NCBI GenBank assembly: GCA_002457155.1
Contig: NTJS01000014.1
Coordinates: forward strand, 1 to 37,466
Length of the DNA: 37,466 nt
From: Marine Group II euryarchaeote MED-G35
GTDB lineage: Archaea > Thermoplasmatota > Poseidoniia > Poseidoniales > Thalassarchaeaceae
Reading direction: 5' to 3'
In this document: one piece after another, positions 10,137 to 31,072 of the stretch
How positions within the stretch are numbered: position 1 is the stretch's first letter
Layout of the letters: the number at the start of each line of letters is the position of its first letter
Program-made: the position numbers and the translations under genes
The notes under the pieces: model-generated
What the model was told of the DNA's origin: nothing
The model's database searches: none
What the model saw: only the letters and a program-made list of their open reading frames with translations

Positions 10137-12758
10137 ATGGCTGACGGCAAGGGGAGCAACGCGGCCAAAGATAAGCAGGCAGCAGACGCGGCGAAGAAGG
10201 CTGCAGACGCGGCGAAAAAGAAGGCTGACGCGGCGAAGAAGGCTGCTGACGCGGCGAAGAAGGCTGCAGACGCGGCGAAGAAGGCTGCAGACGCGGCGAA
10301 GAAGAAGGCCGATGCGGAGAAGAAGGCTGCAGACGCGGCGAAGAAGAAGGCCGATGCGGAGAAGAAGGCTGCAGACGCGGCGAAGAAGAAGGCCGATGCG
10401 GAGAAGAAGCGTCTGCAAGAGCAGAAGAAGGCTGCAGACGTGGCATCACAGGAGAGGACGGCGGCCGAGAAAAATCTCGAGAGTGCCAAGAAAGCGAGGG
10501 ACAAGGCCGAACAAGAACTCAAGAAGACAACAGAATCCATCAAAGAGACATCCAAAAAGATTAGCGATCTGAAGAAGTCCAAATCGACCACAGAGAAGGA
10601 CCTAAGGAACCAGGACTCGATTAGGAAAAGGGCCGAAAGCGACCTTGTCCGAAAGAAGAGGGCGAGCACCGCGGAAGCGAAGCAGCTAGAGAACCTCGAA
10701 AGACAGGTGAAATCAGTCAAGGCGGGGTTGGAGGACTCCAAGAAGGCCGCCTCGGAGGCAAAGAGCCGATTGGAAAAGGAAATGGCCAGATCCAGCAAAA
10801 ACGCAAAGAAGTCTGGAGACCTGTCCAAAGAGCTGTCCTCCCTCCAAGGTGACCTCAAGAAGTCACAGAACGAGCACATGAAGGCGGAGAAGGAACTCTC
10901 TGAGGAGTCGAAGAAGGGTGCTTCCGAGAAGGCCAGGCTGCAACAGGCCACAGATTCACTGAGGGCCCTAAGGGGCAAAATATCCGAATTGGCGAAGAAG
11001 GTCAAGGTCACGAGAGCGAGGACGGAGGATCAGGCGAAGATGCTGAAGGACTTCGAAGGCAGGCTAGCCGAGGAGACCAAGGCCAAGGCAGAGGCGGAGA
11101 AAAGGCTGGAAAGGGCCAAGAAGGAGACCGAATCGGCCATCTCGAAGAGGAAAGAGGCAGAGGCCAAGACGAAAGGTGCAGAGAAGACATACCAATCCAC
11201 AGTGAAGCCCAGAAAGGACGCCGAGGACAGGGCCAAGAGGGCCGATTCCGACAGGAAGAAGGCTGAGAGGGAGCTCGAGAAGAGAGAGGTCCTCCGGAAG
11301 AAGGCGGAGGCGGAGGCGAAGAAGGGAGTGGCCGACAGGAAGGCCGCCGAGAAGACCAAAACGGAGGCCGAGAAGACCAAAACGGAGGCCGAGAAGGCGC
11401 GCGACGAGAGCATCAAGGCGACGGACAAGGCAAGGGCCATTCTCACCGAGGCGAGGACCAAGCTAAAGGGGATCAGGGAAGACCTACAAAGGGCAGAGAT
11501 AGAGCGCAAGTCAGCCCAAGACAAGTCAGCCAAGGCCAAGACCGAGGCAGAAGAGCTAGCCAAGAAGGCAGCGTCCAGCAAGGCGAGCGCAGAGAGCGCG
11601 GCCAAGAGGGTGAAGGACGAAAACAAGGCCGGCAAGGAAGCGAAGGCCAGGTACGCGGAGCACCAGAAGAGGGGCGAAGGGGCGAAGAAGGAGGCTGCCG
11701 AGGCTGACAAGGAGAAGGAGAAGTCACTGAGCAAACTCGGGGAAGTAACCAAGGCCAAGCAAGCATACCAGAGAAGGGCCTCGGAAGAAAGCAAGAAGAG
11801 AGAGGCCCTGGAAGATGAGACCCGGCAGAAGAAGAAGTTGACCTCGGACACCAACAAGAAGGCGGAGTCCGAGGCCAAGATGAAGGCGGAGGCAGAGAAC
11901 AAGGCAAAGTCGGAAGCACAGTCCCACAAGAAGGCCAAGGAGGACCTGAAGAGCGAGACCGAGGCCTGGAAGGAAGCGGAGAAGGAACTGGGCAAGGCGA
12001 CCGGAGCCAGGAAGAAGGCACAAGCAGAGGAGGCGAAGGCCAGGAAGGAGAAGGAAGCCACCCAGAAGGAGCACCGAGACGCCAAGCAGAGCAGGATTGA
12101 GGCCGAGAACGCTGCCAAGCAGGAAGAGAGGGACATGAGGGAGTCCCAGAGGCTAGCAGAGGGGGAGGCGAAGGCCAGGCGGGACCTCGAGAAGGGGATA
12201 GAGGAAGAGGAGAAGCGCCAGAAGATAGCAAGGGCCAAGAAGAAGGCAATGGCGAAGAAGAAGCTCAGTGCAGAGGAGCTTGCCAATGAGGAGGCGCGCA
12301 AGCGCCAGGCGGCCAAGGACAAAGTCAAGAAGAAGGCCGAGAAGAGGCGGAAGAAGGCCGAGGAAGCTCGCCAGAGGAAGAGCCTTGCCGAGGCCGAGGC
12401 AGAGCGGGAAGCGGAGGTGATCAAACTGGAGGTGGAGATGAGGCTGAACGACCTGAAGACCCAGGAGGGGTCCATGGCCAAGGAGGACTACATCAACGCC
12501 AGGATAAAGATCAAGGCGATCACAGTGGACTTCTCGGTCATCGGAGAATCCGAAGGCAGGGACGACGACCTGCAGCAGATAGACGGGATCGACGATGCTC
12601 TCGAGAAGAGGCTGAACACCCTCGGCATCACCACGCTGGACCAGCTATCGAAGATGGGCGACGACATGTCGGACGACGTCAACGACGCGATAGAATACAT
12701 GCCTGGGAGGATTCGCAGACAACTGTGGTCAGACCAGGCGAAGATCCTGCTGGAGTGA
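10137..12758 (+). CDS. Cytoplasmic Lys/Ala/Glu coiled-coil protein with C-terminal helix-hairpin-helix module
   Basis: 873 aa with no signal sequence or membrane segment. Residues ~10-105 are a near-perfect KADAEKKAADAAKK-type repeat, histone H1/TolA-like in composition. Residues ~105-770 are one long heptad-rich, Ala/Lys/Glu coiled coil, with the look of SMC or myosin-rod proteins but no ATPase head. Residues ~797-873 form a compact domain (DDLQQIDGIDDALEKRLNTLG ... MPGRIRRQLW) of the COG3743-like helix-hairpin-helix type. The same module ends the giant protein next door twice. A rod with a C-terminal docking or nucleic-acid-binding head is the best description; polymer or nucleoid-associated functions are inference. 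A canonical TATA box precedes the gene, and a perfect hairpin follows its stop. Confidence 0.85.
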   Translation: MADGKGSNAAKDKQAADAAKKAADAAKKKADAAKKAADAAKKAADAAKKAADAAKKKADAEKKAADAAKKKADAEKKAADAAKKKADAEKKRLQEQKKAADVASQERTAAEKNLESAKKARDKAEQELKKTTESIKETSKKISDLKKSKSTTEKDLRNQDSIRKRAESDLVRKKRASTAEAKQLENLERQVKSVKAGLEDSKKAASEAKSRLEKEMARSSKNAKKSGDLSKELSSLQGDLKKSQNEHMKAEKELSEESKKGASEKARLQQATDSLRALRGKISELAKKVKVTRARTEDQAKMLKDFEGRLAEETKAKAEAEKRLERAKKETESAISKRKEAEAKTKGAEKTYQSTVKPRKDAEDRAKRADSDRKKAERELEKREVLRKKAEAEAKKGVADRKAAEKTKTEAEKTKTEAEKARDESIKATDKARAILTEARTKLKGIREDLQRAEIERKSAQDKSAKAKTEAEELAKKAASSKASAESAAKRVKDENKAGKEAKARYAEHQKRGEGAKKEAAEADKEKEKSLSKLGEVTKAKQAYQRRASEESKKREALEDETRQKKKLTSDTNKKAESEAKMKAEAENKAKSEAQSHKKAKEDLKSETEAWKEAEKELGKATGARKKAQAEEAKARKEKEATQKEHRDAKQSRIEAENAAKQEERDMRESQRLAEGEAKARRDLEKGIEEEEKRQKIARAKKKAMAKKKLSAEELANEEARKRQAAKDKVKKKAEKRRKKAEEARQRKSLAEAEAEREAEVIKLEVEMRLNDLKTQEGSMAKEDYINARIKIKAITVDFSVIGESEGRDDDLQQIDGIDDALEKRLNTLGITTLDQLSKMGDDMSDDVNDAIEYMPGRIRRQLWSDQAKILLE
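10183..10412 (+). repeat. In-frame tandem repeat, 42-nt (14-residue) unit at its 3' end
   Basis: The codons for KADAEKKAADAAKK recur exactly every 42 nt (GCCGATGCGGAG at 10308, 10350 and 10392). Shorter 18-21-nt variants of GCAGACGCGGCGAAGAAG lie upstream. Fourteen residues equal two heptads, so expansion by whole units keeps the coiled-coil register. The near-identical DNA indicates recent slippage or recombination. Confidence 0.9.
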
Positions 12759-12763
12759 GTCAA

Positions 12764-12789
12764 CAGACACCCCCCTACAGGGGTGTCTG
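12764..12789 (+). other. Perfect 10-bp stem-loop after the coiled-coil gene
   Basis: CAGACACCCC (12764-12773) pairs perfectly with GGGGTGTCTG (12780-12789) around a 6-nt loop. It starts 5 nt after the coiled-coil stop. No T-run follows on either strand, so it is not a textbook intrinsic or archaeal T-tract terminator. A 3'-end stabiliser, processing site or attenuator-like structure are alternatives. Confidence 0.75.
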
Positions 12790-12805
12790 AAATCGAAAAC
12801 AAGAG

Positions 12806-12819
12806 TTATCCGCGGATAA
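12806..12819. promoter_or_regulatory. 14-bp perfect palindrome, candidate operator of the giant gene
   Basis: TTATCCGCGGATAA is fully self-complementary. It ends 2 nt before the TCAAAAGCGG box (12822-12831) and 31 nt before the giant gene's ATG, where a dimeric repressor would block TFB/TBP loading. The palindrome is certain; the operator role is inferred. Confidence 0.5.
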
Positions 12820-12821
12820 TA

Positions 12822-12831
12822 TCAAAAGCGG
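12822..12831 (+). promoter_or_regulatory. Promoter box of the giant surface-protein gene
   Basis: TCAAAAGCGG ends 20 nt before ATG 12851. It shares its AAGCGG end and spacing with the boxes before the TusA gene and the gene at 34902. A purine-rich TTGGGAGAG just before the ATG could act as a weak Shine-Dalgarno if there is a short leader. Confidence 0.45.
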
Positions 12832-12850
12832 AATTTCACGTTGGGAGAGT

Positions 12851-15800
12851 ATGCGAGCGCAAGCAAGGGCCTCCGTACGGGCCCTGACACTGGTTCTGCT
12901 GATGCTCACGAGCACACAGCTGATGCTCCTCTCTTCCATGGACCACTCCGTCCGGGAGCTCGAACGGGCACCGCAGAGGTTCGACATCGACAACTCCGAG
13001 GTCTCCATAATCGACTTGGGAAATGACCACGCTTGCGTTATCGGTACATCGAACCAGATGAAGTGCTGGGGAGGAGGTGATGCGGGCAAGACCGGTCACG
13101 AGAACACTGCCGACTACGGTGACGACGAGAAGGAGATGGGGCAGTACCTCATGTTCACGGACCTCGGTATTGGGATCGTAGTCACGGAAGTTAGTGCTGG
13201 GTCGGATCACACCTGCGCCCTGATAAGCGATGGGTCAGTGAAGTGCTGGGGCAGCAATCACCTCCTCGGATCCGCCTCCGGAGCCGAGGACACGGGAGCT
13301 AGGGGGGACGGTTTCATGGAGATGGGGGACAACGTCCCCACGGTATACGGCTTCGGACCGGGGTCTTCCAGTTCAGAATGGAACGCGGTTTCCATCTCAG
13401 TCGGTCACACGCACGCTTGCTCCATAGTAAACGACACGACTCAGGACCAGCTGAGGTGCTGGGGGTTGAACGACTATGGCCAACTAGGCCTAGAGTCAAC
13501 AGACACAATCGGTGACGATGCCTCGGAGGGAATGGCAGTGGACCTCCCGGACAGGGGTGGCATTGGGATTTCCCAGGTCTCTGCCGGATACAGCCACACC
13601 TGCGTACTTTGGGTCGATGGCGAGATGGCCTGCTGGGGGTCCAACGGCTACGGGGAGCTTGGCATTGGCAATACTAGCACAATCGGCGACGAATCCGGCG
13701 AGATGGGCGAGAGCCTGGGCCTAGTCAGCCTCCCCTCCGGGAGAACGGCCACGCAAATAGCAGCGGGAGAGCACATGACCTGCGCCGTGCTGGACGAGCA
13801 GGTTGATGGGAACCTTGTATGCTGGGGATGGGGTGACAGCGGCAGGCTCGGAAGCGAATCCGTCGGAACAACCGGTGACTCCTCTGGTGAGATGGGGGAT
13901 AACCTGGAAGTGGTGGAGCTCGGAACCGGTCTTACAGTCGATTCCATTGGAGTGGGGTACGGATCCTCATGCGCAATCATGAACAACAGCATGGTGAAGT
14001 GCTGGGGATTGGGTGACAGCGGCGCTCTTGGTTACGAGGATGCCGTTTCCAGGGGCTTCGGGCAGAATCAGATGGGGATTTACCTCCCGGCTGTTGACCT
14101 AGGTTCCAACGTTCATGCGACGAGCGTCGATGTTGGCGAGTCATTCGCATGCGCAATCATGAACAACAGCATGGTGAAGTGCTGGGGAACTGGTTTGGAC
14201 GGGAGGACCGGACTGGGCATTTCCGGCGCAACTGGCGACACTGAAGGGGACATGGGAGATAACCTGCCATACGTGGAGCTCTACCTGCCCGAGGAGACTC
14301 TGGACCAGCCCTGCGACCTCCCTGCTGAGGGGTCGCCCCTCTCCCAAGACACACTCGACAGCAGCAGCCAGTACGTAGGCAACAAGATCTCGACTACCAT
14401 GACCCCAGAGGGGTGCGGTGCCGTTGCCTACATCGACGAGACGAACCTATTAGCCAGGTTCGGAATCTTCAACAAGGGCAAGTGGGCCACGGAGAACGTC
14501 TACGTCTTGACCGGTTACACCGACGCCAGGTTTCTTGACGTGTCTCTGACCATCGACTCCAGCGGCACCCCGCACATCGCCATATCCCTGACGAACAACG
14601 GGGCGTCCGGCTATGGACTGTTTTACGTAACCAAGGTGGATGGGGAATGGTTGAGTAACGAGGTTTCCGGCCAGAGGACGACTGCCAATTCCATAGAGTT
14701 GGATGAGGACGGCAACCTGTACGTCATCTTCCAAGACTACAGTGAATCAGGAGGAGATTGGCTCGGAAAGGTGTACGCCATGACATGCTCCTCCGCCCAA
14801 TACGAATCCACCCAATGCGTGGGATCTGGTGACTGGGAGACACCCCCCAGCGACAGTTGGGTGGGCCCATCGTCCTTCTCCAACTCTCTCGACACCGACG
14901 TCGCCTTCGACGGGATGATCCAGATTGCCTACATCAGCAATGAAACCTGCTCCACCACATCCTGTCTAGGCGAACCGGGGTACGTGATGGTAGTAGAACT
15001 AGACTCGAGTGGATTTGGGACCCCCGTCAACACAAGTGGACTAGCAAACGTACCGGGGCAATGGGATAACTGGGCAGTTGCGGGGAACTCCTCGCTCGCC
15101 ATGGACCTGGGTCTGGATGGCTCCATCAACATCGCCTACCTAGGAAGCACCGAGGGGGTCCACTACACGTCTTGCACCTCGGACTGCGGCAACCCCGGCT
15201 CATGGACCTCGGAGGACGTGACGGATTCCGTAGACGTCTCCGACACAGGGATCATCGACATCGCGGTGGGAGCGGACCTGTCCACCCTGATTCTCGCTGG
15301 CACCTCCGACGGGACGTTCGCGCTGCACAAGAGCGACGGCTCGTGGGAGAAGACCGAGCTGGAGGACTCGGGGGGAGCGGGATGGGTGGGAGTCGAGCTC
15401 AGCGGACAGGGGAAGATGTGGGGGTACTCGTACTACCCAGGGACTCCAGCATCAATGTCACTTTTCACCCAGGAGGGCCTCGCCACTGCGGGCCTGCTAA
15501 CCGACATAGACGGCGATGGGTGGACGAGGCTCGACGAGGCCCGATGCGGCACTGACTACTCAAACTCGTCCTCGACGCCAGTGGACGCCGACGGCGACGG
15601 TGTGTGCGACCTCTTCGACGACTGGGAGGACTCCTCGGTCTCGGCCGAGTCCGATGCCCTCTCCATCGGGGAGGAGTTCGGGTGCGCGGTGCTGTCCAAC
15701 AGCTCCGTGGCATGCTGGGGCGACAACTCCGAGGGGCAGCTGGGAAGCGCGTCTGCTGGACCCAGCAGCGCCTACGCGGTGCTCGTCGATCTCCCCGCCG

Positions 15801-18800
15801 GCTTCGAGGCGGGGGCCGTGGACGTCGGCTCGGCCCATGCCTGCTCCACGGGACTCGATGGCAGCCTGGTCTGCTGGGGCAGGAACGCCAATGGGCAGCT
15901 CGGACGCGGGACTGCCACTGCCAACGAGCTCCCCGGCTACGTGAGCCTGCCGTCCGGGGTCACGGTCTCGCAGTTCGCTGCGGGAGCGGACCACAACTGC
16001 ATGACCGGCACGGACTCCAACATGTACTGCTGGGGCAACGGGGGCGATGACAGGACTGGAAAGATCGTCAACAGCGAGAACACTGTAATCCAGTACGAGA
16101 ACTTCACCGACAACTCGAGGTCTTGGACCAGCACACACACGAGTCTCCTGCTGGGCCCGGCAGAGGGTCTGGATTACATAGAGAAGCTGTACTACTATAC
16201 TTGGCTATATCCCGAGATATACTCCGATGACTCGTTCGACGTCTCCCCAGGAGACGTGGTTTCCTTCAAGATGAGGGGCAAGGGCCATGGCGACAACGGG
16301 TACACCAGCGAGTACATCAGGTTCTACGCTGATAGCCAACAGGTAGTCCAAATCGACTCCAACTCCACGACACAATCCTCGAGCTGGTCGGACTGGCAGG
16401 ACGTCTCGTTCACCGTTCCGGATTCCTATACGGGAACCGGTCAAGTCTCTATCAAGATCTACATCAGGGGTTACAGGAACTACCTCCAGATTGACGACCT
16501 TCGAATAGCCACCCCTTCCTTTGGATCGATGAGCTCAGTCCCCTCCCCGAGTCGAGTATTGTGGGACGAATCCGGTGGCGTCTCGCAGATAGCCCTCGGT
16601 GCACGACACTCCTGCGCACTGCTAACCACTGGCAGCGTGAAGTGCTGGGGGCACAACGGAGGGAGCTACTCGAACGTCCTCGGGAGCCCTACATACACCG
16701 GGATGAGCACCTACGACCCGAAGGAGGTCGACCTGTCTGGCTCGAGCAGCCTGGTCTCGTCCAACTGGACCAGCAGCACCGTGGATGGGATTAACGCGGG
16801 CGATGGGGTGACTTGCGCGATAATGAGGAGCGGCGAGGCGCTCTGCTGGGGGACATCGTCACAGACCTCATACGCCGACCCGTCCGTTAGCACAGTGGCT
16901 TCGACGGGTGATGTCGGCAGGAGCCCGGCACTGACCACGGATGCTAATGGAAACTGGCTGTTGGCCTACAACGACGGGGATGGGATCTCGTACGCGAGGT
17001 ACGACGGCTCGAGCTGGAGCATGGCTTCCGTCTGCTCCGACTCCGACGAATGCGACAGCGACCGGGGCATCGGAGTCGGTGAGGAATCTGGGGGGGGCCT
17101 GCACTTCCTGAGCTACGACGAGGCTGCGGAGAAACTAGTCCACACTAGGCACCTGAGCAACATCACCACCATGGTCTCCGTGACCGGCCAGGACCCGAGG
17201 TACTTCGGCATCGCTAGGGACCCATCCACAGAGGAACTGCACCTGGCATACTACAGGGCGAGCGGCAAGAAGTTGATGCACAAGACGTTCAATGGCACGG
17301 GTTGGTCGGACTCGGTAGTCATAGATGACGACAAGTCATACACAGGCTACTCGTGGAACGGCATGAAGATAGATGCGGGAGGAAACCTGCACCTCTCATA
17401 CTGGTCCTGGTCGACCTCTGGGACCGATGACACGTGGCTGAAGTACGCCCATTACAACGGGACATCCTGGACCGTGGAGACCCTGCAGTCGATCATGGAC
17501 CAGAACAGCCCCACACTGCACACATCCCTGGACCTGGACAGCAGCGGCAACCCGCACATCTCCTACTACGACCACAAGAACGACACTCTCCGCTACACCT
17601 ACTACGACGGCGCAGACTGGGTCGACCAGAACCTCACGGTAGACGACTCGAACGACAACGGCAGGTACAACTCGATAGCACTGGACAGCAGCGACTACCC
17701 CCGGATAGCTTACAGGAACGAGACGTCGGACGACCTGGAGCTCGCCACATGGAGCGGTACGGAGTGGACAAGGGAGGTGGTCGACAGCACCAACAGCGTC
17801 GGCAGCTGGGCCTCCATCGCCATCGACAGCAGCGACTTGAGCAGGATAGCGTACTTCTACGACTCGGGATCCGACCTCAGGTACGCCTCGCACGACGGGG
17901 CCTCATGGTCCTTCCAAGACATCGACACGAGCGTGCAGTCCCACAGCATAGTCCTCGAGCTGGACGACAGCGACAGGCCCCGGATAGCATACCAGGACTA
18001 CTACAGCGAGCCTTGGCTCGCATACAACAACAGCGGGACTGGGGGGCAATGGGAGACGGTCCAAGTCAGGGACGGGTATGACCTTGGGGACCACATGGCA
18101 ATGACGCTTGACTACTCCACTGGGACGGCTTACATGGCATACCGGCAGCTTGACTGGCCGGCTGACGGCGGACTGCTCACGACGGTCTACACAGGGACGG
18201 CGTTAGCGTCAGACGCGGTGGCCAACAGCGGTGAGACTGCCAACTCGATCGGCATGGACCCGGAGATTCACATCTCGGGCAGCACCGTCATGGCCCCGTT
18301 CCTCAATGGGACGGACGGAGCATCACCGGCATTCGTCGAGATGGCGACTATCAGAGCCCCCGGTTCGGGCATCACAACTGTGGACGGGGAGAGTTACAAC
18401 GTCGGCAGCTATGGCATCTCCATGGCGCTAGACGGCGCTGGGAACCAGCACATCTCATACTACAACCAAAGCGGGACCAGCCTGATGTACGCAACGTTCG
18501 ACGGAGCCTCGTGGCAGGTCGAGGAGGTTGACAACGGAGTATCCTACGTCACCTCGTCGATAGCGATAGACGATGCGGGGAACCCCCACATCTCCTACGT
18601 TAACTCAACCCCGTCTCCAGATGCGGTCATGTACGCCCACCACAACGGCTCGGCATGGTCCATCGAGGTAGTCGCCACACCCTACTATGCCTATGACACC
18701 TCGATCGACCTGGATTCCAGCGGCAACGCGCACATCTCATACGCTGCATACAACAACTCCATCGGGTCCTACAACCTGAGGTACTCTTACCACAACGGCA

Positions 18801-21800: not shown

Positions 21801-24800
21801 GGATAGACATCTGGGACTCCGATGACGACAACGATGGCTACATCGACACAAACGACGACCTTCCCTTCGACCAGAGGGACTGGTTCGACCATGATGGCGA
21901 CGGCATCGGCGTAAACACAGACACCGATGACGACGATCCCGATATCACGACCGCGGATCAGGACACAGTCACGAAGTGGTCCGATGCCGAGGAGATCGCC
22001 TGCGGGACTCTATGGTGGAGCAGCATGTCAGAGCCCACAGACTACGACGGGGATGGCATCTGCGACGCTATCGATGATGATGTGGACGGCAACTCATGGA
22101 ACGACACCTACCAAATCGAGTGCTACGGCGGTGAGCCATCTGCATGGTCGCAGAGGGGGGTCTGGGACAATGCAGGAGACTTGCCTACCAGTTCTGGTGA
22201 CAGCCCAACATACGGATACGACTTCTTCATCTCCGATTACGGAATACGCTTATTCTCCACATATGGCAATGACTGGTCGTACAATAGCCTATTGAAGTTC
22301 GATGGGACGGTTAGTGCGACCCAGTCAATTTACGATAACAACGATTTCGACTATTGGGGAGTGGAGGAACGCAATGGAATAATCTACGTTATTGATCAGT
22401 ATGGGATCACAAGGGGCATCGACGCGAACGGCAGCATCTCATCGCTCGGCTACAGATCGGATCACTCGATAGCATCGACACAAGACGTTGCAATCAGCGT
22501 CGAGGGAGACATGGTTGTCAGGTGGGACGACTCGGACGGTGGGTCCGACATCAAGGGATGGTACCTCAACGGAACGGAATTCTCCATCAATGTCCCAGGG
22601 GGACTTTCTGACAACTACAATCACCACCCACAAATCGACTTTGGGCCAAATGGAAAGCTGCATCTGCTAACCGTAAACATCTCTGCAAGAGACGCTGGAC
22701 TACCTGTGGGTTTCTACCACTACACGGCTGATCTAAATGGCAGCCTCTCGGGAAGCGCGACCGTCTCGTGGAGCTCTCCGAAACTGGTTCTAGAGCGGAA
22801 CCAGAGCACGTCATGGGCCAGCGACACCGACTATTCCAGTACCGATCACGGTAGAGCGGAACTGCACGTTTCGAGCGACGGAACCGCATACGCAGCGATG
22901 TACAACGGGACTAACCTGTGGTTCTCGGCCTTAGGGGGTTCATCTTGGAGCACCGAGGAGATTGCATCTTCAACGGGTAGGAACGAGGGTGTCGAGATTG
23001 CAACCAACTCGACGGGGGTGGCTCACGTCGCATGGATCAATCACACCTCGGACAAGCTAATGCTGTCCCACAAGTCAGGAGTTTCGTGGATTCACGAAGA
23101 AGTATGGCAGAGCAATGGGTGGAATGAAGGAAGCACTCTGCAGGAGTTGAACTATGCTGGGCTGAGGCTGGAGTTCGATCGCCAGGACGACCCGTACCTG
23201 TTGTCCATTGATGCCAACGACAGCAGTTCGGCAATTCTCCATCACAAGGGGGCTCTGTTAGACCCGTCGTACACATTCCAGCCCACGGACGCCGGTGGTG
23301 ACGGGGTGTGCGACACGCTGCAGTACGCCGTCATGGACTACGGCACCGCCTCGTTGGTCGCAACGAAGGGGGAGTTAGTCTCCTTGTCGCCGACCTTCGA
23401 GGGTCAGGCCCTGGTCGAGGTGTGGGCACCGTCGCTACCTGCTGGACTCTCCGTCAACAACACCACCGGAGAGATAACAGGGGTGCCGACAGTGGTTGAC
23501 ACGACAGGTACTGCCCACACGATCTACTCGAACAGCAGCGACGCATCCTATCCCGTCACCATCACCTTCACGGTCAGGTCCCCGACACCAGTTCATGCTG
23601 GTTATGGCCAATGGGACGACCACCAGTACACATCAGTCAACAATGGAAGGGGATACGCGTTACACGAGTACGACTCGGACAGTAACCTGTACTACTACGG
23701 GAGATACCAATCTACCTCTGCGTGGTCAGCCGACGGACTAAGCGTATCAATCAGTTCGGGTGACCTATACGTCGCCAAGAGATGGGCGAACGGGACGTGG
23801 GCATGGGTCGTGCCAATCACACCGACCTCCGGGATTCCCGGAGCCATGGCCGTTGACGGTTCTGGTAACACCTACGTAACCGGGTATAGGGCGAGTGGTG
23901 CCCTGGACCTCCCGGGGACTGAGCATGACCTCCCCAACAGGGAGGCTGCCTTCTTCATCTCGCTGGACACCAACGGCAGCACCAGGTGGTCGCAGGATGC
24001 TTACATCCCAGGATCAACCGATGCGAACTGGAAAGTCTCGACACAGGCCAGCGTGAACAACTACGGATTCACCAGGATGAGCGTCAATGAGACTACAGGA
24101 AATCTCACGGTTGCCGGCCAGATCTCTACCAACTCGGCCTCATACAGGATGGTGACCTTCGGAAACGTCACCATGGAGATCCCGAGTACCAACTACAACT
24201 ACTACAGGCCATTCGTGGTCAGGATCAACGCGACCGGCAACTTCTCATGGGCCACTACCTTGACTCCAGCCTCCTCCAGCCACAGGACCCTGCAGGGTAT
24301 GGGTGTGCATGACGACGGAAGCGTCGAGGTCCTGATGAGGGCCAACGGGGACACCCAACTGGGGGACCATACCGTGGGGAACGACACCTACCACTACGTC
24401 ATCGGGAGGATGAACGGAACCGGAGCATGGACTGGTGCATCCAAGATCACGTCTGAGAGCCCTGCGGGATTCGACGGTAACTACGACTCTGCCATGATGG
24501 AAGTTACCCCCTCGGGAGATATGGTCATGGCCATCTGGTCCGTGAACGACCTCAGCAGCCTGAACGTGACCAGTTCGGTGTCATGGTTCAACGAGACCTG
24601 CTCCGACAGCCTCGTGGTAATCAGGCTGAGCGGAGCCGAATGGAGCACAGAGGCATCACGGGAGTTCTGCCTGTCCTCCAATGCGGGATACTATGCGGAG
24701 TACTACAGCCTGCTTGAGATTGACCCCCAGGGGAAGCCGGTCCTCCTCCTCGGGCAACGGGCGTACAGCGTTGCGAGCCACCATAGGATACTGAGGCTCG

Positions 24801-27800
24801 ATTCGAACCTGAACCCGGACTTCGAGGAGTACCTGGTATCCGCCAACAATCCTGCGAACTCCCATACCTTGGACTGGGAGGACGTTGCCTTCGACCCCAT
24901 TGGCAACATGCTGGTGAACTACTACGATAATACATGCAATCTATACTGGAACGGGAGCTACATGGGGAGGCCCTCGTCCAATTGCTACTACAACAGCCAA
25001 TTCTTCATGGAGACCGTGGGGCATACCATCGACGGTGCGAATCTGGTGGAGGGCGAGCCCGCCACCCTCTGGGGGGTCACTGGCCTGAGTGCCATGGGGG
25101 CGACTTGCAGCCAGGGGACGAGCTACTGCGACGAGTACCTCGACTCCTGGGGGTCGACCGCCCTGCCGGAAGGCTTGAGCATGAGCTCGGACACCGGCCT
25201 TGTCTCGGGGACTGCGACCAGCAACATGTCACTATCAGAATTCACCCTATGGATGAATGACACCGCCTTGGGCAACAACCAGTTCAACGTCTCATTCCTT
25301 ATCCTGAATGGCAGGCCCACGATATCATACAACCAGACGGCCTTCGTCATGGAGCGTGGGCTGGAGATCGAGCCGATCGCCCCCTACGAGGTCAATGGGA
25401 CCATCCTGAACTGGACCTTCGTACCAACACTGCCATCCGGCCTCATACTGGGGGACAGCAACGGGACGGTCTACGGGACCCCGACGGTGAACCTGACAGA
25501 GCAGACATTCCAACTACGAGTCACGAGCGAAGGGGGCACGACCGCAGTCAACTTCCAGTTCACGATCAACGAGCCAATCGCCAACATCTCCTACGGTAAC
25601 GGAACATACAACATCCCGAGGGACGCTCTAGTCAGCATCCAACCGACCTTAGAGGGGGGTGCCGTGGAGAGCTTCGCGATTAACTCAACGGATTACCCGC
25701 TAGGACTGACATTCAACACCACCAACGGGTTCTTCGAGGGCATCCCCCTGCTAGTTACCAATCTGACTACATACACAGTCTGGGCCAACAACTCAGGAGG
25801 GAGCGCGAGTACCGAGGTCTCCATCTGGGTGATCGGGAACGGGATCTTCCTCAGCTTCCCCACGGACGACCTGCTGCTGACCGAGGGTTTGCCGATGCAA
25901 CCGATAGCCGGACAGACGTCCGGCTCCACCCCCGAGAGCTGGGAGGTTTACCCAGACCTCCCTCTCGGACTGACATTCGGAGCCTCCAACGGTTCGATAT
26001 GGGGGACCCCCACCCAAGTACAGAACCAGACGAACTACACCATCTGGGCGAATGCCACGGGAGACCAGACCAGCTCCGTGACCATCTCAATCACGGTCCT
26101 CGTGGACACCGATGGCGATGGAGTCGCGGACCTTTACGACCCCGATGACGACAACGACGGGTGGAATGACACCGCTGAGCTCGATTGCGGGACAGACCCC
26201 CTGGATTCGGCTGACACCCCCTCCGACATAGACAACGACGGCGTTTGTGATGCCCTGGACGAAACGGATGACCGTGCTATAGCCATGGCTTATGGGGTCA
26301 CTAATCTAGAACTGATAGTGAACGTCTCCAACGTCTCCCTGGTCCCAATAACTTCTGGAGGGGGAATCACCTCCTGGGAGGTATCCCCCTCCCTGCCAGG
26401 AGGCCTATTCTTGAACAATACCACTGGTGAGATATCCGGAACCCCAACTACGACATACAATACTACAGTGCATGTTTTCTGGGCCAACAACTCAGCCTAT
26501 TCCGCATCATTCAATCTGAGCATTTCCGCCTCGCTACTTGATACCGATGGAGACGGCGAGCCTGACATCACCGACGAGGACGATGATGGCGATGGCTGGT
26601 CCGACGTGAACGAGACTGCTTGCTCCACTGGACCATTGGACGAGGATGACTTCCCCCCTGATAGTGATGGGGACGGGGTCTGTGACTCCCTGGATCTCGT
26701 CGACGACTCTCCGGTTTTCCTTGCCTATGCGGTGTCAGCGGTCAATCTGACTACGAACATCACATCATTGGAGATGGCTCCAATTGTCCTAGGTGGAGAT
26801 GTGCGGGCATGGGAAACCTCCCCCTCGATGCCATCTGGGTTGTTCTTCAACAATAGCACCGGAGAGATTTCAGGAGTTGCCAACGTTACATTCACGCCCA
26901 CGAACTTCACGATTTGGGCCAACAACAGCCAATACTCCTCGAGTTTCGTCATCAACATCTCCTCATGGCGGCTCGATACCGATGGCGATGGGGTTCCCGA
27001 TGAGGACGACTCCGACGATGACGATGATGGTTGGACCGACGAAGAGGAGCAGACGTGCAATACGGAGCAGCTAGACAATACCAGCATCCCCTCCGACTCG
27101 GATGGCGATGGGATGTGCGATCTCGTGGACCAAATCAATGACAGCCCCATTAGCCTGGCTTATCCACAGAGCACTGTTGTGCTAGTCGTCAACATAACCC
27201 CAGTTCAGATCCACCCGATAGTGTTCGGAGGCGATGTCAGGGAATGGAGCATCCATCCGGAGCTTGGCACAGGGCTAGTATTCAACAACAGCACCGGACA
27301 AATCTCCGGCCATTCCACGGAACCATTCAACGCTACCAATTATGACGTCTGGGCGAACAATAGCCAATATGGCTCCAACTTCTCAATTACCATCTCGTCG
27401 GCCCTACTCGACACCGATGGCGATGGGATTCCTGATGAGTCCGACACGGACGACGACAACGATGGCTGGGGCGATTCCGAAGAGACGTCGTGCCTCACCG
27501 ATATTCTGGATCCACTGTCATTCCCAGAGGACCATGATGGCGATGGTCTCTGCGACGGCCTCGATGACATCGACGACTCTGACCTCTTCCTAGTCTACAG
27601 CATGACCTCCCAGCTGCTGTTCGTCAACGAACCGATGGATTCCATAGTTGCGACGACCTACGGAGGAGACGTCCGGACCTGGGAGATATGGCCTCCGCTT
27701 CCCGATGGTCTGAGCCTGAATGGCGCATTGGCCCGCTCTGGCCAGGTGAACGGGACCATTAGCGGAGCCCCGATGTTCGAGTTCGAACTCCAGGTTTTCA

Positions 27801-30800
27801 CAGTGTGGGCGAACAACTCACAGTACCACAGCTCGGTGGAGATAACACTCCAATCGGTCACTCCCGACCCGGATGACGACGCCTTCGACCTGATCTACCT
27901 GGATAACGAGCTCAATCTCACAACCAACGTGGATGAGGTGTACATGGAGCCGCAGATTTTCGGAGGTAATGTGTCATCGTGGTCAATCTCGCCCGATCTT
28001 CCGGAGGGTTTGGAATTCAACACGACCAATGGACTGATCACGGGATTCGCAACAGAGGAGGTGAATGGCTCAACCTACACGGTCACGGGGAGCAACTCAC
28101 TCTTCATGGACACCTTCCCCATAACGATCTTCGCCACGCACCTGGACACGGACGAGGATGGGGTGCCGGACATATTCGATCCAGATGACGACGGTGATGG
28201 ATGGAACGACACGGACGAGATCGAGTGCGGTACTGACCCCTTGTACATCGTCAGCAGCCCCGAAGATCACGATGGGGACTGGATATGCGATCCGAACGAC
28301 GAGTTCGACGACTCCCCGATCGTATTCTTTTACCCCAATGACAAGCTAGTCCTCACCGTTGGAGAGGAGATGGAGCCACTGGAGCCTCTAATCGCGCCCA
28401 ACAGCGGAGGGATCATGCTATTCTCGGTTCTGCCTGACCTTCCGGCAGGACTAGTGCTAGACAACGCGACCGGAGTCATCTCCGGGACTCCAGAGGAGGC
28501 ATGGAGGCACGTCATACTCGAGTACTCGCACACCTTCAAGGCCGAGAACTCCCAGTGGGACTTCTCCTACAGGGTCGACTTCGATATCTTCTGGCCAGAG
28601 GACAACACCACGGACGAGGACGGGGATGGGTGGGCCGACCTGATCGAGCTCGAGTGCAATACCGATCCGACCAACGCTTCCTCCTTCCCGGAGGACATCG
28701 ACTTGGACGGCATATGCAGCCACATCGACGAGGATGACGATGGCGACAACATAGGCGACCCGATCGACAAGTTCCCGAAGGACCCCACCGCATGGGACGA
28801 CACTGACAACGACACCATGCCGGATGAGTTGACCTGCAGGTACCTGACCGACTCGGCAAACTGCACATTCGACCTGGTTGAGGACCTTGATGACGACAAC
28901 GACGGATGGCTTGACCTAAACGAGACAAGCTGTGGAACGGACTCAAAGGACAATCTCTCGGTTCCCGAGGACGATGACGGCGATGGAGTTTGCAACCTAT
29001 TGGAGGTGTACGTCCCAGATGCTGTGAAGATACTGTGGATATGCTGCTTCCCACTCCTCCTTCTGCTGCTTCTCCTACTCTGGGTAATCAACCCGTTCAC
29101 AGTGAGGGAAGAGGAAATCCTAGGGCCCGAACCGGAGTATACCAGCACTGAGGACGGGTGGCAGGGAGGAAGCGGTGAATACGACGACCCGTATGTTCTC
29201 AAACCGATGAAGGGGATTCGCAAGGGCTCCTTCGCACGGAGTCACGAGGTGATCAGTGTCTCGAACATCACCCCTAGGCTGAAGTGCGACTTCACGGACA
29301 TGTCATCGGAAGACAACGGCAGTCGCTTCCGCATGCAGTCGATCAAGTCCAATTCCAGGGGGGACATAGAGTTCAGATTGGAGTTCAATGACGATGGCGA
29401 CACCGTCAACACCACTGATTACACTGGACTGATCAGACTAGGTAAGGCGACGGTTTACTTCCAGTGGGAAGTAGAGGTCGAAGTGCAACACGACACCCCC
29501 GAAGAGGAGCGGGCGAAGAAGAGGGCGAAAAGAATCGAGAGGGACGCGAAGAAGAAGGCAGCGCAGTTGGAGCGAGAGGCGGTCGAGAAGGCTGCCGATG
29601 CTGAAATCGACGCTAAGAAGAAGGCAGCGCAGTTGGAGCGAGACCTGAAGACCAAGATAGAGAGGGTCGAAAGAGAAGCCGAGAAGAGGACCGCGGAAGC
29701 GGATATGAAGGCCGCAAAGGCCGAGATGAAGGCAGCAGAGGCCGAGAGGGAGGCCGCAATGAAGCTAGCAGAGGCACGGCGAGAGTCCAAGCGAGAGGAA
29801 GAGGAGAGACTCCAGAGGGAGAAGGAAGAGGAGAGGAGAGCTGCGAAGGAGGATGCAAAGAAGGCGGCAGAGGAAGATGAGAGGCTTGCAGAAGAAGAGA
29901 GGAAGGCCGAGGAAGAAGCTGCAGAACTACGTGCGATTCTGAGGAAGAAGGCGGAAGCTCGGAAGGTAGAGGAAGAGGAGAATAGAGCTGCGGAGGAGGC
30001 TGCGAAGAAGGAGGCAGAGGAAGAGGCAAAGAGGATCGAGAGGGCGGCAGAAGAGAGGGCGGCCCTACTGAAGAGAGAAGCAGAAGATAGGGCGGAGAGA
30101 ATCGAGAGGGATGCAGCCAAGAAGGCTGCTGAAGTGGAAAGAGAGGCTCAAATTAAGGCCGTGGAGGCCAAGGAGAAGCTGAGGAAGAGGGCGATAGAGA
30201 GGAAGCGCCAGATGGATCTCGAGGAGCGGGACAACCAACTAGCTCGCGAAAAGGCTGCAGAGAGATTCGCAGCCATGGAGGAGGAGCTAGAAGAGAGGAA
30301 GTCGAAACTGGAAGAGCTCGATGCAGAGGCCAAGAAGAAGGAAAGTGCCCTCCTCAGGGTCGCCGAGAAATCGAAGGACATAGACTTCGGGATTCTGGGC
30401 TTCGCCACCGCCGACAACAAGGACCAACTCCAGGAAATCAAGGGAATTGGGCCGTTCATCGAGGAGAAGCTCAACGCGCTCGGGATATTCACATTCGCCC
30501 AGATATCCCGAATGACCTCCGAATTGGAGGACAAGGTCAACGATGCGATAGAGTTCTTCCCAGGGAGAGTGAAGAGGGACGAGTGGGCAAATCAAGCTAG
30601 GAGTTTTGTCGACCTGGGGGAGGAATCAGCTAGCAAACCCCCCCCTCCCGAAGGGGACATTGCCTCGTCCACGGACAAGGAACTGCTAGACCGAGCCAAA
30701 GAGGATATCAGGGAGAAGGAAATTGCAGACGAGAAGGAAAGGGAGCTACAAATCAGGAGGGAGAGGGCGGCAGAGCTCCTGAGTAGGAGCAAGAGCGAGG

Positions 30801-31072
30801 AGAAAACCGATAGAGGCGAGGGGGATGAGTCGGGAGTCGACTTCGCAACGATTGGTTTCGGTTCCGAAGAGGACAGAGATGACTTGCAGCAAATCGACGG
30901 CATAGGGAGGTTCGTCGAGAAGAAGTTGAATGCGATAGGCATCTACAAGATATCCCAGATCGCTAACATGGATCAATCAATCTCTGACGAGGTGAATGCC
31001 ACAATTGGCCTCGGTCCTGGGCGGATTGACAGAGACGAGTGGGTCCAACAGGCCAAGCGCCTGATACGATAA
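12851..31072 (+). CDS. Giant (6073-aa) single-pass surface protein: RCC1 propellers, Ig-like/TSP3 stalk, membrane helix, cytoplasmic coiled coil and two helix-hairpin-helix modules
   Basis: One uninterrupted 18.2-kb frame. In order: signal sequence (~residues 10-30); RCC1 blades 1-7 (51-482); a propeller-like block (483-880); a thrombospondin-3 (TSP3) Asp-box segment; RCC1 blades 8-12, interrupted by a ~150-residue beta-sandwich-like insert (1078-1230); a ~1030-residue block of SSGNPHISY-type repeats (1349-2375); RCC1 blades 13-21 (2397-2974); TSP3; further propeller-like blocks (3090-4057); alternating Ig-like (He_PIG) and TSP3 units (4060-5384); membrane helix (5394-5415, CCFPLLLLLLLLLWV); a small beta domain (5434-5547); coiled coil (5550-5840); two helix-hairpin-helix modules (5844-5921, 5996-6073). 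The signal and membrane helix put ~5360 residues outside and ~660 inside. Adhesion, ligand capture or envelope-to-cytoplasm linkage are possible; the function is unknown. Confidence 0.92.
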   Translation: MRAQARASVRALTLVLLMLTSTQLMLLSSMDHSVRELERAPQRFDIDNSEVSIIDLGNDHACVIGTSNQMKCWGGGDAGKTGHENTADYGDDEKEMGQYLMFTDLGIGIVVTEVSAGSDHTCALISDGSVKCWGSNHLLGSASGAEDTGARGDGFMEMGDNVPTVYGFGPGSSSSEWNAVSISVGHTHACSIVNDTTQDQLRCWGLNDYGQLGLESTDTIGDDASEGMAVDLPDRGGIGISQVSAGYSHTCVLWVDGEMACWGSNGYGELGIGNTSTIGDESGEMGESLGLVSLPSGRTATQIAAGEHMTCAVLDEQVDGNLVCWGWGDSGRLGSESVGTTGDSSGEMGDNLEVVELGTGLTVDSIGVGYGSSCAIMNNSMVKCWGLGDSGALGYEDAVSRGFGQNQMGIYLPAVDLGSNVHATSVDVGESFACAIMNNSMVKCWGTGLDGRTGLGISGATGDTEGDMGDNLPYVELYLPEETLDQPCDLPAEGSPLSQDTLDSSSQYVGNKISTTMTPEGCGAVAYIDETNLLARFGIFNKGKWATENVYVLTGYTDARFLDVSLTIDSSGTPHIAISLTNNGASGYGLFYVTKVDGEWLSNEVSGQRTTANSIELDEDGNLYVIFQDYSESGGDWLGKVYAMTCSSAQYESTQCVGSGDWETPPSDSWVGPSSFSNSLDTDVAFDGMIQIAYISNETCSTTSCLGEPGYVMVVELDSSGFGTPVNTSGLANVPGQWDNWAVAGNSSLAMDLGLDGSINIAYLGSTEGVHYTSCTSDCGNPGSWTSEDVTDSVDVSDTGIIDIAVGADLSTLILAGTSDGTFALHKSDGSWEKTELEDSGGAGWVGVELSGQGKMWGYSYYPGTPASMSLFTQEGLATAGLLTDIDGDGWTRLDEARCGTDYSNSSSTPVDADGDGVCDLFDDWEDSSVSAESDALSIGEEFGCAVLSNSSVACWGDNSEGQLGSASAGPSSAYAVLVDLPAGFEAGAVDVGSAHACSTGLDGSLVCWGRNANGQLGRGTATANELPGYVSLPSGVTVSQFAAGADHNCMTGTDSNMYCWGNGGDDRTGKIVNSENTVIQYENFTDNSRSWTSTHTSLLLGPAEGLDYIEKLYYYTWLYPEIYSDDSFDVSPGDVVSFKMRGKGHGDNGYTSEYIRFYADSQQVVQIDSNSTTQSSSWSDWQDVSFTVPDSYTGTGQVSIKIYIRGYRNYLQIDDLRIATPSFGSMSSVPSPSRVLWDESGGVSQIALGARHSCALLTTGSVKCWGHNGGSYSNVLGSPTYTGMSTYDPKEVDLSGSSSLVSSNWTSSTVDGINAGDGVTCAIMRSGEALCWGTSSQTSYADPSVSTVASTGDVGRSPALTTDANGNWLLAYNDGDGISYARYDGSSWSMASVCSDSDECDSDRGIGVGEESGGGLHFLSYDEAAEKLVHTRHLSNITTMVSVTGQDPRYFGIARDPSTEELHLAYYRASGKKLMHKTFNGTGWSDSVVIDDDKSYTGYSWNGMKIDAGGNLHLSYWSWSTSGTDDTWLKYAHYNGTSWTVETLQSIMDQNSPTLHTSLDLDSSGNPHISYYDHKNDTLRYTYYDGADWVDQNLTVDDSNDNGRYNSIALDSSDYPRIAYRNETSDDLELATWSGTEWTREVVDSTNSVGSWASIAIDSSDLSRIAYFYDSGSDLRYASHDGASWSFQDIDTSVQSHSIVLELDDSDRPRIAYQDYYSEPWLAYNNSGTGGQWETVQVRDGYDLGDHMAMTLDYSTGTAYMAYRQLDWPADGGLLTTVYTGTALASDAVANSGETANSIGMDPEIHISGSTVMAPFLNGTDGASPAFVEMATIRAPGSGITTVDGESYNVGSYGISMALDGAGNQHISYYNQSGTSLMYATFDGASWQVEEVDNGVSYVTSSIAIDDAGNPHISYVNSTPSPDAVMYAHHNGSAWSIEVVATPYYAYDTSIDLDSSGNAHISYAAYNNSIGSYNLRYSYHNGTEWVYEDVKDYSSNWGYGNTGRNGQIKLNSTDVPHVVFFDDYWDDVYLSIRVNGSWSSSSVDDYGGLYTANGERGISLAIDSADGLHVAYYEMNGRYLEYAYRDLGGSSWTKTNVNDQGGHYIGTSVSIAVDSADRPHIAYHDRSQWDLEYAWFDGADWLVETLDGYYSSGRYPSIALDDGDQVHIAYENNSGSRLMSLVISNGIAATDKISQVGTHSYGMGFAVGTSGGMHLSFYNGSDSSGSLQYASKSGSSWTSETVDDSSTMIGTHSDLALDDSGNPHISYVDSTNGLLRYAYHDGNSWALSTVDPSGSVLGYTSITIDDDGHPRIAYHDGSLRLAESDGSSWTLTIQDAGSAGQGAQVTVDDDGKARIAYFDEDNDDLAFSLAGHQSPVVMGSSQFHPTGTSMGSGASGLSSLDVGETHGCAVSSSSVICWGVATGGQLGNGAVAVISEDPVSVTTVAGWTPLEVSVSTSSGSGGGTTCALYSSDSTEDRRVMCWGDGSSGQVGDGGTSSLTSPASTDLVMLDSITPLGASDGSVALSSSPYGVAEISLSDGGKFGCARSSQGHVKCWGYNGYGQLGHGNTSTASDGAEEMGSNLAFVPLGANRTASSVSAGGRHACALLDDGSVKCWGYNGHGQVGIGNATQIGDGANEMGAYLSAVDLGTGRTATDIATGLFHSCAVLDDGSVKCWGYNGYGQLGIGNTTSIGDGANEMGDDLAVVDLGTGRSAIAIEAGEHYTCAILDSGVLKCWGYNYYGQLGQGHNENIGTGPDFDSNGVSCHPTQNSDLNTRECNARMGDGLPAIDLGDGRTATAVSAGLSSTCAILDNGSIRCWGSNADGRTGIGTYSGYTGDAAGEMGDDLPNVDLGSERTAASISVGYSHSCALLDNLSIACWGDNYYGELGIGSNDDVDTPEEMGSGLENALLPTAKSTAVASGSYYTCAIIKDGTVRCWGEDSEGRLGVYDGEDDNIGDESGEMGGNLVLTNLYMVPPDFDGDGWIDIWDSDDDNDGYIDTNDDLPFDQRDWFDHDGDGIGVNTDTDDDDPDITTADQDTVTKWSDAEEIACGTLWWSSMSEPTDYDGDGICDAIDDDVDGNSWNDTYQIECYGGEPSAWSQRGVWDNAGDLPTSSGDSPTYGYDFFISDYGIRLFSTYGNDWSYNSLLKFDGTVSATQSIYDNNDFDYWGVEERNGIIYVIDQYGITRGIDANGSISSLGYRSDHSIASTQDVAISVEGDMVVRWDDSDGGSDIKGWYLNGTEFSINVPGGLSDNYNHHPQIDFGPNGKLHLLTVNISARDAGLPVGFYHYTADLNGSLSGSATVSWSSPKLVLERNQSTSWASDTDYSSTDHGRAELHVSSDGTAYAAMYNGTNLWFSALGGSSWSTEEIASSTGRNEGVEIATNSTGVAHVAWINHTSDKLMLSHKSGVSWIHEEVWQSNGWNEGSTLQELNYAGLRLEFDRQDDPYLLSIDANDSSSAILHHKGALLDPSYTFQPTDAGGDGVCDTLQYAVMDYGTASLVATKGELVSLSPTFEGQALVEVWAPSLPAGLSVNNTTGEITGVPTVVDTTGTAHTIYSNSSDASYPVTITFTVRSPTPVHAGYGQWDDHQYTSVNNGRGYALHEYDSDSNLYYYGRYQSTSAWSADGLSVSISSGDLYVAKRWANGTWAWVVPITPTSGIPGAMAVDGSGNTYVTGYRASGALDLPGTEHDLPNREAAFFISLDTNGSTRWSQDAYIPGSTDANWKVSTQASVNNYGFTRMSVNETTGNLTVAGQISTNSASYRMVTFGNVTMEIPSTNYNYYRPFVVRINATGNFSWATTLTPASSSHRTLQGMGVHDDGSVEVLMRANGDTQLGDHTVGNDTYHYVIGRMNGTGAWTGASKITSESPAGFDGNYDSAMMEVTPSGDMVMAIWSVNDLSSLNVTSSVSWFNETCSDSLVVIRLSGAEWSTEASREFCLSSNAGYYAEYYSLLEIDPQGKPVLLLGQRAYSVASHHRILRLDSNLNPDFEEYLVSANNPANSHTLDWEDVAFDPIGNMLVNYYDNTCNLYWNGSYMGRPSSNCYYNSQFFMETVGHTIDGANLVEGEPATLWGVTGLSAMGATCSQGTSYCDEYLDSWGSTALPEGLSMSSDTGLVSGTATSNMSLSEFTLWMNDTALGNNQFNVSFLILNGRPTISYNQTAFVMERGLEIEPIAPYEVNGTILNWTFVPTLPSGLILGDSNGTVYGTPTVNLTEQTFQLRVTSEGGTTAVNFQFTINEPIANISYGNGTYNIPRDALVSIQPTLEGGAVESFAINSTDYPLGLTFNTTNGFFEGIPLLVTNLTTYTVWANNSGGSASTEVSIWVIGNGIFLSFPTDDLLLTEGLPMQPIAGQTSGSTPESWEVYPDLPLGLTFGASNGSIWGTPTQVQNQTNYTIWANATGDQTSSVTISITVLVDTDGDGVADLYDPDDDNDGWNDTAELDCGTDPLDSADTPSDIDNDGVCDALDETDDRAIAMAYGVTNLELIVNVSNVSLVPITSGGGITSWEVSPSLPGGLFLNNTTGEISGTPTTTYNTTVHVFWANNSAYSASFNLSISASLLDTDGDGEPDITDEDDDGDGWSDVNETACSTGPLDEDDFPPDSDGDGVCDSLDLVDDSPVFLAYAVSAVNLTTNITSLEMAPIVLGGDVRAWETSPSMPSGLFFNNSTGEISGVANVTFTPTNFTIWANNSQYSSSFVINISSWRLDTDGDGVPDEDDSDDDDDGWTDEEEQTCNTEQLDNTSIPSDSDGDGMCDLVDQINDSPISLAYPQSTVVLVVNITPVQIHPIVFGGDVREWSIHPELGTGLVFNNSTGQISGHSTEPFNATNYDVWANNSQYGSNFSITISSALLDTDGDGIPDESDTDDDNDGWGDSEETSCLTDILDPLSFPEDHDGDGLCDGLDDIDDSDLFLVYSMTSQLLFVNEPMDSIVATTYGGDVRTWEIWPPLPDGLSLNGALARSGQVNGTISGAPMFEFELQVFTVWANNSQYHSSVEITLQSVTPDPDDDAFDLIYLDNELNLTTNVDEVYMEPQIFGGNVSSWSISPDLPEGLEFNTTNGLITGFATEEVNGSTYTVTGSNSLFMDTFPITIFATHLDTDEDGVPDIFDPDDDGDGWNDTDEIECGTDPLYIVSSPEDHDGDWICDPNDEFDDSPIVFFYPNDKLVLTVGEEMEPLEPLIAPNSGGIMLFSVLPDLPAGLVLDNATGVISGTPEEAWRHVILEYSHTFKAENSQWDFSYRVDFDIFWPEDNTTDEDGDGWADLIELECNTDPTNASSFPEDIDLDGICSHIDEDDDGDNIGDPIDKFPKDPTAWDDTDNDTMPDELTCRYLTDSANCTFDLVEDLDDDNDGWLDLNETSCGTDSKDNLSVPEDDDGDGVCNLLEVYVPDAVKILWICCFPLLLLLLLLLWVINPFTVREEEILGPEPEYTSTEDGWQGGSGEYDDPYVLKPMKGIRKGSFARSHEVISVSNITPRLKCDFTDMSSEDNGSRFRMQSIKSNSRGDIEFRLEFNDDGDTVNTTDYTGLIRLGKATVYFQWEVEVEVQHDTPEEERAKKRAKRIERDAKKKAAQLEREAVEKAADAEIDAKKKAAQLERDLKTKIERVEREAEKRTAEADMKAAKAEMKAAEAEREAAMKLAEARRESKREEEERLQREKEEERRAAKEDAKKAAEEDERLAEEERKAEEEAAELRAILRKKAEARKVEEEENRAAEEAAKKEAEEEAKRIERAAEERAALLKREAEDRAERIERDAAKKAAEVEREAQIKAVEAKEKLRKRAIERKRQMDLEERDNQLAREKAAERFAAMEEELEERKSKLEELDAEAKKKESALLRVAEKSKDIDFGILGFATADNKDQLQEIKGIGPFIEEKLNALGIFTFAQISRMTSELEDKVNDAIEFFPGRVKRDEWANQARSFVDLGEESASKPPPPEGDIASSTDKELLDRAKEDIREKEIADEKERELQIRRERAAELLSRSKSEEKTDRGEGDESGVDFATIGFGSEEDRDDLQQIDGIGRFVEKKLNAIGIYKISQIANMDQSISDEVNATIGLGPGRIDRDEWVQQAKRLIR
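13001..14295 (+). repeat. RCC1-type propeller I, seven blades
   Basis: Seven units of the form HxCA...G.VKCWG...G.LG, with CWG codons at 13064, 13244, 13457, 13631, 13820, 14000 and 14180. Each blade carries a Cys pair, suited to disulfides outside the cell and absent from eukaryotic RCC1. Units 6 and 7 share a 41-nt identical stretch (13968-14008 and 14148-14188) exactly 180 nt apart. Confidence 0.85.
14296..15640 (+). other. Propeller-like block and TSP3 calcium-binding segment of the giant protein
   Basis: Residues ~483-880 show beta-rich repeats such as DSSGTPHIAISLTNNG and DGSINIAYLGS, similar to the larger block further on. They end in a TSP3-like stretch, DIDGDGWTRLDEARCGTD...DADGDGVCD (15497-15640). 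The DxDGDGxxD loops are calcium-binding, and the Cys pair probably forms a disulfide. Confidence 0.65.
15650..16870 (+). repeat. RCC1-type propeller II, blades 1-5, with an inserted domain
   Basis: Five RCC1 units with CWG codons at 15713, 15872, 16028, 16643 and 16844. Between the third and fourth lies a non-RCC1 insert (16081-16540) with beta-sandwich character (DSFDVSPGDVVSFKMRGKG ... LQIDDLRI), reminiscent of carbohydrate-binding jelly rolls. Confidence 0.75.
16895..19975 (+). repeat. ~1030-residue array of SSGNPHISY-type beta repeats
   Basis: About twenty units of ~45-55 residues of the pattern (I/L)DSSGNPHISYYD....LRYAYHDG..W..E.VD. This is characteristic of sialidase-like or YVTN-like propeller blades, with at least two propellers' worth of sequence. 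Unit borders vary and the DNA repeats are diverged, so this array is older than the 180-nt RCC1 repeats. Confidence 0.7.
20040..21770 (+). repeat. RCC1 blades 13-21, including a perfectly phased 180-nt tandem tract
   Basis: Nine units with CWG codons at 20102, 20294, 20513, 20693, 20873, 21053, 21302, 21485 and 21659. Four successive units (20513-21053) are spaced exactly 180 nt and share long identical DNA, such as GTCAAGTGCTGGGGCTACAA and GGGGACGGTGCGAACGAGAT, showing recent duplication. The first two blades are separated from the last seven by a linker (~20330-20440). Confidence 0.85.
21781..25020 (+). other. TSP3 segment and mixed propeller-like blocks of the giant protein
   Basis: 21781-22110 encodes dense DxDGDG/DxDDDNDG calcium loops. 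22120-23290 is another propeller-like block. 23330-23580 holds one He_PIG Ig-like unit (LPAGLSVNNTTGEITGVP). 23590-25020 has SBBP-like blades (AVDGSGNTYVTGY). Asn-x-Ser/Thr sites are abundant, fitting an N-glycosylated archaeal surface protein. Confidence 0.6.
25030..29000 (+). repeat. Alternating He_PIG Ig-like and TSP3 stalk
   Basis: At least ten Ig-like units recognised by LPxGLxxNxTTGxISGxP, the later ones separated by TSP3 units (DTDGDGVxDxxDxDDDxDGW ... CGTDPLD ... DxDGDGVCD). Each TSP3 unit has a Cys pair and multiple Asp ligands. The array leads directly to the membrane helix, so it probably forms a long calcium-stiffened stalk holding the propellers away from the cell. Confidence 0.8.
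29500..31069 (+). other. Cytoplasmic tail of the giant protein: coiled coil plus two helix-hairpin-helix modules
   Basis: Residues ~5550-5840 are Glu/Lys/Ala/Arg heptads (ERDAKKKAAQLEREAVEKAA). Two modules follow, DQLQEIKGIGPFIEEKLNALG...PGRVKRDEWANQA and DDLQQIDGIGRFVEKKLNAIG...PGRIDRDEWVQQA, separated by ~75 charged residues. The GIG hairpin and the PGR-x-x-RDxW-xxQA end match the COG3743-like module also found on bacterial NuoE and other proteins, where DNA binding is not established. Confidence 0.8.

Follow-up and report, generated by a model that had tools for sequence, protein, structure and literature searches.

The C-terminal module shared by a coiled-coil rod and the giant envelope protein encoded next to it in a Marine Group II euryarchaeote is, judged by its sequence relatives, a widely used tag, not a lock exclusive to this pair. 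We tentatively read the giant as a surface adhesin or receptor whose tail would dock, by this generic module and a coiled coil, onto a scaffold that includes the rod, with an MscS-family channel as functional neighbour. The window, i.e. the whole stretch of 37,466 nucleotides analysed here, is one contig of a 1.2 Mb assembly that is ~68% complete; the locus has public relatives in Marine Group II / Poseidoniales genomes, e.g. REDSEA-S11_B3N4, Guaymas_23 and the single cell AG-422-I22. The features of the block are the following.

10137..12758, + strand: soluble coiled-coil rod, 873 aa (ORF), with the coil at aa 1-795 and orthologues in genera g1 and g16
12525..12755, + strand: C-terminal HHH-like module of the rod, net charge about -11, hairpin GID (profile and alignment)
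12851..31072, + strand: giant envelope-spanning protein, 6073 aa (ORF, hydropathy, Pfam)
12851..12946, + strand: predicted N-terminal signal sequence of the giant, about aa 1-32 (hydropathy)
12947..29029, + strand: predicted ectodomain of the giant, with RCC1 propellers, He_PIG Ig-like repeats and TSP3-like Ca2+-binding motifs (PF25390, PF13540, PF00415 and PF05345 above cut-off; PF18884 weak)
29030..29089, + strand: predicted transmembrane helix of the giant, aa 5394-5413 (hydropathy), with a CFP motif conserved in related giants
29108..29506, + strand: post-membrane Ig/PapD-like domain of the giant without a Pfam match (conserved in Poseidoniales giants; AF2)
29504..30370, + strand: predicted cytoplasmic coiled coil of the giant (periodicity)
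30380..30613, + strand: HHH-like module 1 of the giant, closest to NuoI, eL21 and Bacteroidota modules (AF2 pLDDT 90.6)
30836..31069, + strand: HHH-like module 2 of the giant (profile, module tree)
31106..32443, + strand: mechanosensitive channel of the MscS family whose place beside the giant is conserved (PF00924 and PF21082 above cut-off; synteny)

The rod and giant ORFs lie on the same strand with 92 nt between them, and the MscS gene starts 33 nt past the giant. ORFs, alignment and BLASTP agree with the initial annotation that the two proteins are neighbours ending in the same module, present once in the rod and twice in the giant. The rod coil shows a strong period of 3.5 residues (windowed power 1.34 vs a shuffle maximum of 0.46) and the giant coil one of about 3.6 residues (1.01 vs 0.75). 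In the giant, hydropathy predicts an N-terminal hydrophobic signal and one strong transmembrane helix. Its ectodomain contains RCC1-repeat propellers, recognized by PF25390 with 447.6 bits in 7 stretches, as well as He_PIG Ig-like domains that exceed the Pfam cut-offs, while the TSP3 match is weak. Behind the membrane, residues 5420-5552 are predicted by AF2, at moderate confidence (pLDDT 75), to form an Ig/PapD-like sandwich that is kept in many giants across the order.

The placement of the giant's modules on the cytoplasmic side, as first proposed from the signal and the single helix, is well supported by sequence evidence. A receptor-like protein of G015 (L061:2020-4398, single cell AG-422-I22) runs from a signal through TSP3 repeats and a transmembrane helix to a rod-type module and a protein kinase. 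The module is thus likely to be cytoplasmic because in this relative it lies between the helix and the kinase, and because other carriers, namely NuoI, eL21 and a soluble esterase, reside on the cytoplasmic side. The composition on either side of the giant's helix agrees with this: the ectodomain of 5393 aa contains 82 Cys and 113 N-x-S/T sequons, the tail of 660 aa 1 Cys and 4 sequons.

The module measures ~75 aa and aligns between the rod and the giant copies over 77-79 columns, with 27 invariant positions and 45/43% identity (BLASTP E 6e-24 for rod vs giant module 1). NCBIfam models for alphaproteobacterial NuoE (PRK12373), L21 (PRK12278), S2 (PRK12311) and phasin PhaH cover each module end to end; the C-terminal stretch of PRK12373 spans 68-75 residues per module (E 8e-11 to 6e-18), and in the PDB 8yy9_O, the RC-LH1 protein-O matched over the full module, and 9wqv_a are found at 3e-11. 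The C-terminal position and the PGR..RDxW core are common to both sides, whereas the alphaproteobacterial hosts are respiratory, ribosomal, storage-granule and photosynthetic proteins and the module here sits on a rod and on a giant surface protein. Furthermore, the aligned archaeal and Bacteroidota copies, unlike the alphaproteobacterial-type domain, have an [IV]DFxxIG lead-in. AF2 predicts a compact, all-helical HHH fold (pLDDT 90.6, pTM 0.83). Foldseek returned no significant match to it in the PDB, its weak neighbours being HHH and SAM-like folds, among them RadA N-domains and NusA AR2 complexed with SuhB (6ib8), and a trypanosome mitoribosome chain. Against Pfam HHH_5, with a gathering cut-off of 27, the window modules score 16-18 bits each and a piece of the giant tail 25.3, while some relatives' modules exceed the cut-off. 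According to the protein-O paper, NuoE, ATP synthase subunit E and an endonuclease bear this domain too; its function is called obscure there, and the RC-LH1 structure does not resolve it (PMC12079452). Literature searches for the module as COG3743 or as L21/NuoE fusions gave nothing useful past that paper, and sequence searches found no phage relatives. Altogether, these matches identify the module as an existing, unnamed helix-hairpin-helix-like domain, which the initial annotation missed.

Besides the rod and the giant, at least eight other kinds of protein carry the module. The same genome encodes a 504-aa coiled-coil protein carrying a single copy, and a UPF0227-like alpha/beta hydrolase in which two copies accompany a coil. 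In other Poseidoniales, it is found at the C-terminus of NuoI inside the nuo operon (L055:7984-9351), fused to ribosomal eL21 in genus g8 (L067:4098-4772, L071:4548-5264), on a multi-TM EF-hand protein, one version of which adds a SAP domain (L056:7218-9659), and on a TSP3/ephrin-like transmembrane protein; bacterial bL21 and uS2 likewise bear it. Across the phylum sample, nearly all strong matches fall in Poseidoniales or a single sister family. Three contigs labelled Rhodobiaceae, Flavobacteriales and Pedosphaera (L086, L099, L149) carry Poseidoniales-type genes, namely archaeal NuoI, the EF-hand transmembrane protein and the post-membrane domain, and are probably mis-binned. A HEAT-repeat protein of Marine Group III also bears the module, and a 530-aa HEAT-repeat protein is encoded upstream in the block of the window (6758-8350). 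In the module tree, which has too few columns for deep order and separates rod, giant-1 and giant-2 copies, the rod modules form a separate supported group joined by the kinase module, and giant module 1 falls near the NuoI, eL21 and bacterial modules.

Rod orthologues are limited to two genera (g1, g16) of one family. Here the expected conservation of the gene pair was borne out, as the giant follows the rod on the same strand in all 14 orthologues with visible downstream DNA, one per genome and from both genera, far from being a rare neighbour; in G018 and G019, whose assemblies break the frame in between, pairing means order and spacing. In G015, the giant beside the rod (L062:3335-17299) runs into a TruB-like end, and it is probably a chimera or frame error because the TM-module end lies elsewhere on the same contig. 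Seven genomes were rescanned for module matches, at a completeness of 84-94% at which a second gene may be missing in any one, and six of them have a single match, on a long frame in G068, G029, G059 and G072 and on a short one in G069, where it is eL21, and G075. G016, of the same genus as the present locus, has two matches, on the rod and on a 554-aa frame, and none on the giant (L075:5005-8097), whose coil runs into a stop codon a short way ahead of MscS; rod, coil and MscS are kept. Taken over these genomes, module pairing between rod and giant is not a general mechanism, because genomes with a single module-bearing gene exist.

The initial annotation overlooked the MscS gene, which adjoins the giant and is its most widely conserved neighbour, kept in the two families that lack the rod. 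The window copy has both the beta and the C-terminal domain (PF00924 66.9 bits, PF21082 49.8 bits). MscS comes after the giant throughout the genus. It lies directly downstream in g1 and, behind a module-bearing giant, in genera g16, g10, g5 and g20; in g8, g5 and g2 it is found upstream. An upstream MscS adjoins the giant in G040 and is one gene away in G052, G130, G035 and G036, the gene between being an HTH_10 regulator where tested. Among the 19 genomes with MscS and the post-membrane domain on one contig, a selection biased upward by fragmented assemblies, 18 have MscS next to the giant or one gene away, with both genes in the same orientation; in G035 the frame is broken. In the one complete genome, G025, the MscS among the matches listed is not near a giant; genomes have ~two MscS genes each. 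Outside g1 and g16, MscS identity is 39-52%, and neighbours such as TopIB are missing in the more distant giant-MscS cases. That the strands agree and that MscS identity is low between lineages argues against simple recent inheritance. A search of the open-access literature found nothing on Poseidoniales giants, RCC1 or MscS pairing.

With this in mind, we tentatively propose that the giant crosses the membrane once and acts as a surface adhesin or receptor, with RCC1 propellers, Ig-like domains and Ca2+-binding repeats outside and an Ig-like domain, a coiled coil and two HHH-like modules inside. The modules would be copies of a promiscuous, mostly C-terminal docking domain by which these archaea, and bacteria, gather membrane complexes, ribosomes and enzymes at a shared cytoplasmic partner or link them to one another. 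The rod, strongly basic along its coil, would then most likely cross-link or scaffold the acidic tail of the giant in the cytoplasm, binding through coil and module, and because an MscS channel adjoins, a unit in cell-surface mechanics or attachment is suggested. HHH domains that serve in protein contacts are known, and one such case, the NusA AR2-SuhB entry, is among the nearest folds, at weak similarity. Against this proposal stand the G016 giant without modules, the restriction of the rod to two genera and the fact that gene adjacency need not mean protein contact. A further-reaching reading, which we consider doubtful, is that the module might serve across domains of life as a docking tag for one common cytoplasmic scaffold; carried by complex I (NuoE, NuoI) and ribosomes (bL21/uS2, eL21) in bacteria and archaea and, in marine archaea, by giant surface proteins beside a mechanosensitive channel, it would couple respiration, translation and envelope in space.

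It is unlikely that the module is a nucleic-acid-binding HHH by which giant and rod hold DNA, RNA or ribosomes at the membrane, a role also considered by the initial annotation. The weak similarity to HHH_5, the Pol IV / Y-family polymerase thumb and RadA, the carriers eL21 and bacterial L21 and S2, the SAP domain on an EF-hand multi-TM carrier and the net charge of +70 of the rod coil would fit such a role. Yet neither a basic surface nor intact hairpin glycines were found, as most copies are acidic (net charge -3 to -12) and the hairpin GIG is changed to GID in the rod; moreover, complex I subunits, phasin, RC-LH1 protein-O and the esterase are carriers without a nucleic-acid role. The mostly C-terminal position on unrelated abundant complexes, the patchy occurrence across genera and the loss in G016 would also suit a regulatory or stability tag, e.g. 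for turnover or stress-state assembly, with the block kept for co-expression of envelope genes, but giants with two or three copies and the combination of coil and module point to architecture, and we regard this, too, as unlikely. That rod and giant touch mainly through their coiled coils while the modules serve something else is quite unlikely: in G016 the giant's modules are gone while rod, coil, TM tail and MscS remain, but this is one genome, and low-complexity coils give no evidence of pairing in sequence. Very unlikely is the private two-component scaffold of the initial annotation, with rod and giant joined by like-with-like modules, whose conserved adjacency and common module stand but whose exclusivity fails, given NuoI, eL21, kinase, esterase and other carriers, the single-module genomes, the module-free G016 giant and a giant module 1 that is 75% identical to the NuoI module vs 41% to the rod's.

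Our tentative proposal of a docked surface protein has partial counterparts elsewhere. Bacteroidota carriers combine a transmembrane helix, a long coil and one or two modules, and in 7 of 7 tested loci an OmpA-family gene lies directly upstream, likewise placing an envelope gene beside a membrane-anchored coil with modules; the ectodomain there, however, is a separate OmpA-family protein, and the rod-giant split is absent. Thrombospondin genes have been noted in Poseidoniales (PMC6461757). Archaeal TSP3/Ig-like surface proteins have similar ectodomain repeats, from which the giant differs by its RCC1 propellers and its large tail with Ig-like domain, coil and modules. LINC and integrin-talin linkers couple outside ligand domains via one helix to cytoplasmic rods; they are an analogy only, with no homology to rod and giant, for which mechanical coupling is putative.

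In summary, Poseidoniales are abundant, uncultured archaea of the ocean surface, and the construction of their envelope is poorly understood; the conserved rod-giant-MscS block is a testable envelope-to-cytoplasm unit. As the module occurs on complex I and ribosomal proteins across two domains of life, and in this case on envelope proteins as well, an "obscure" C-terminal domain becomes a problem that can be approached experimentally in many ways in laboratory bacteria.
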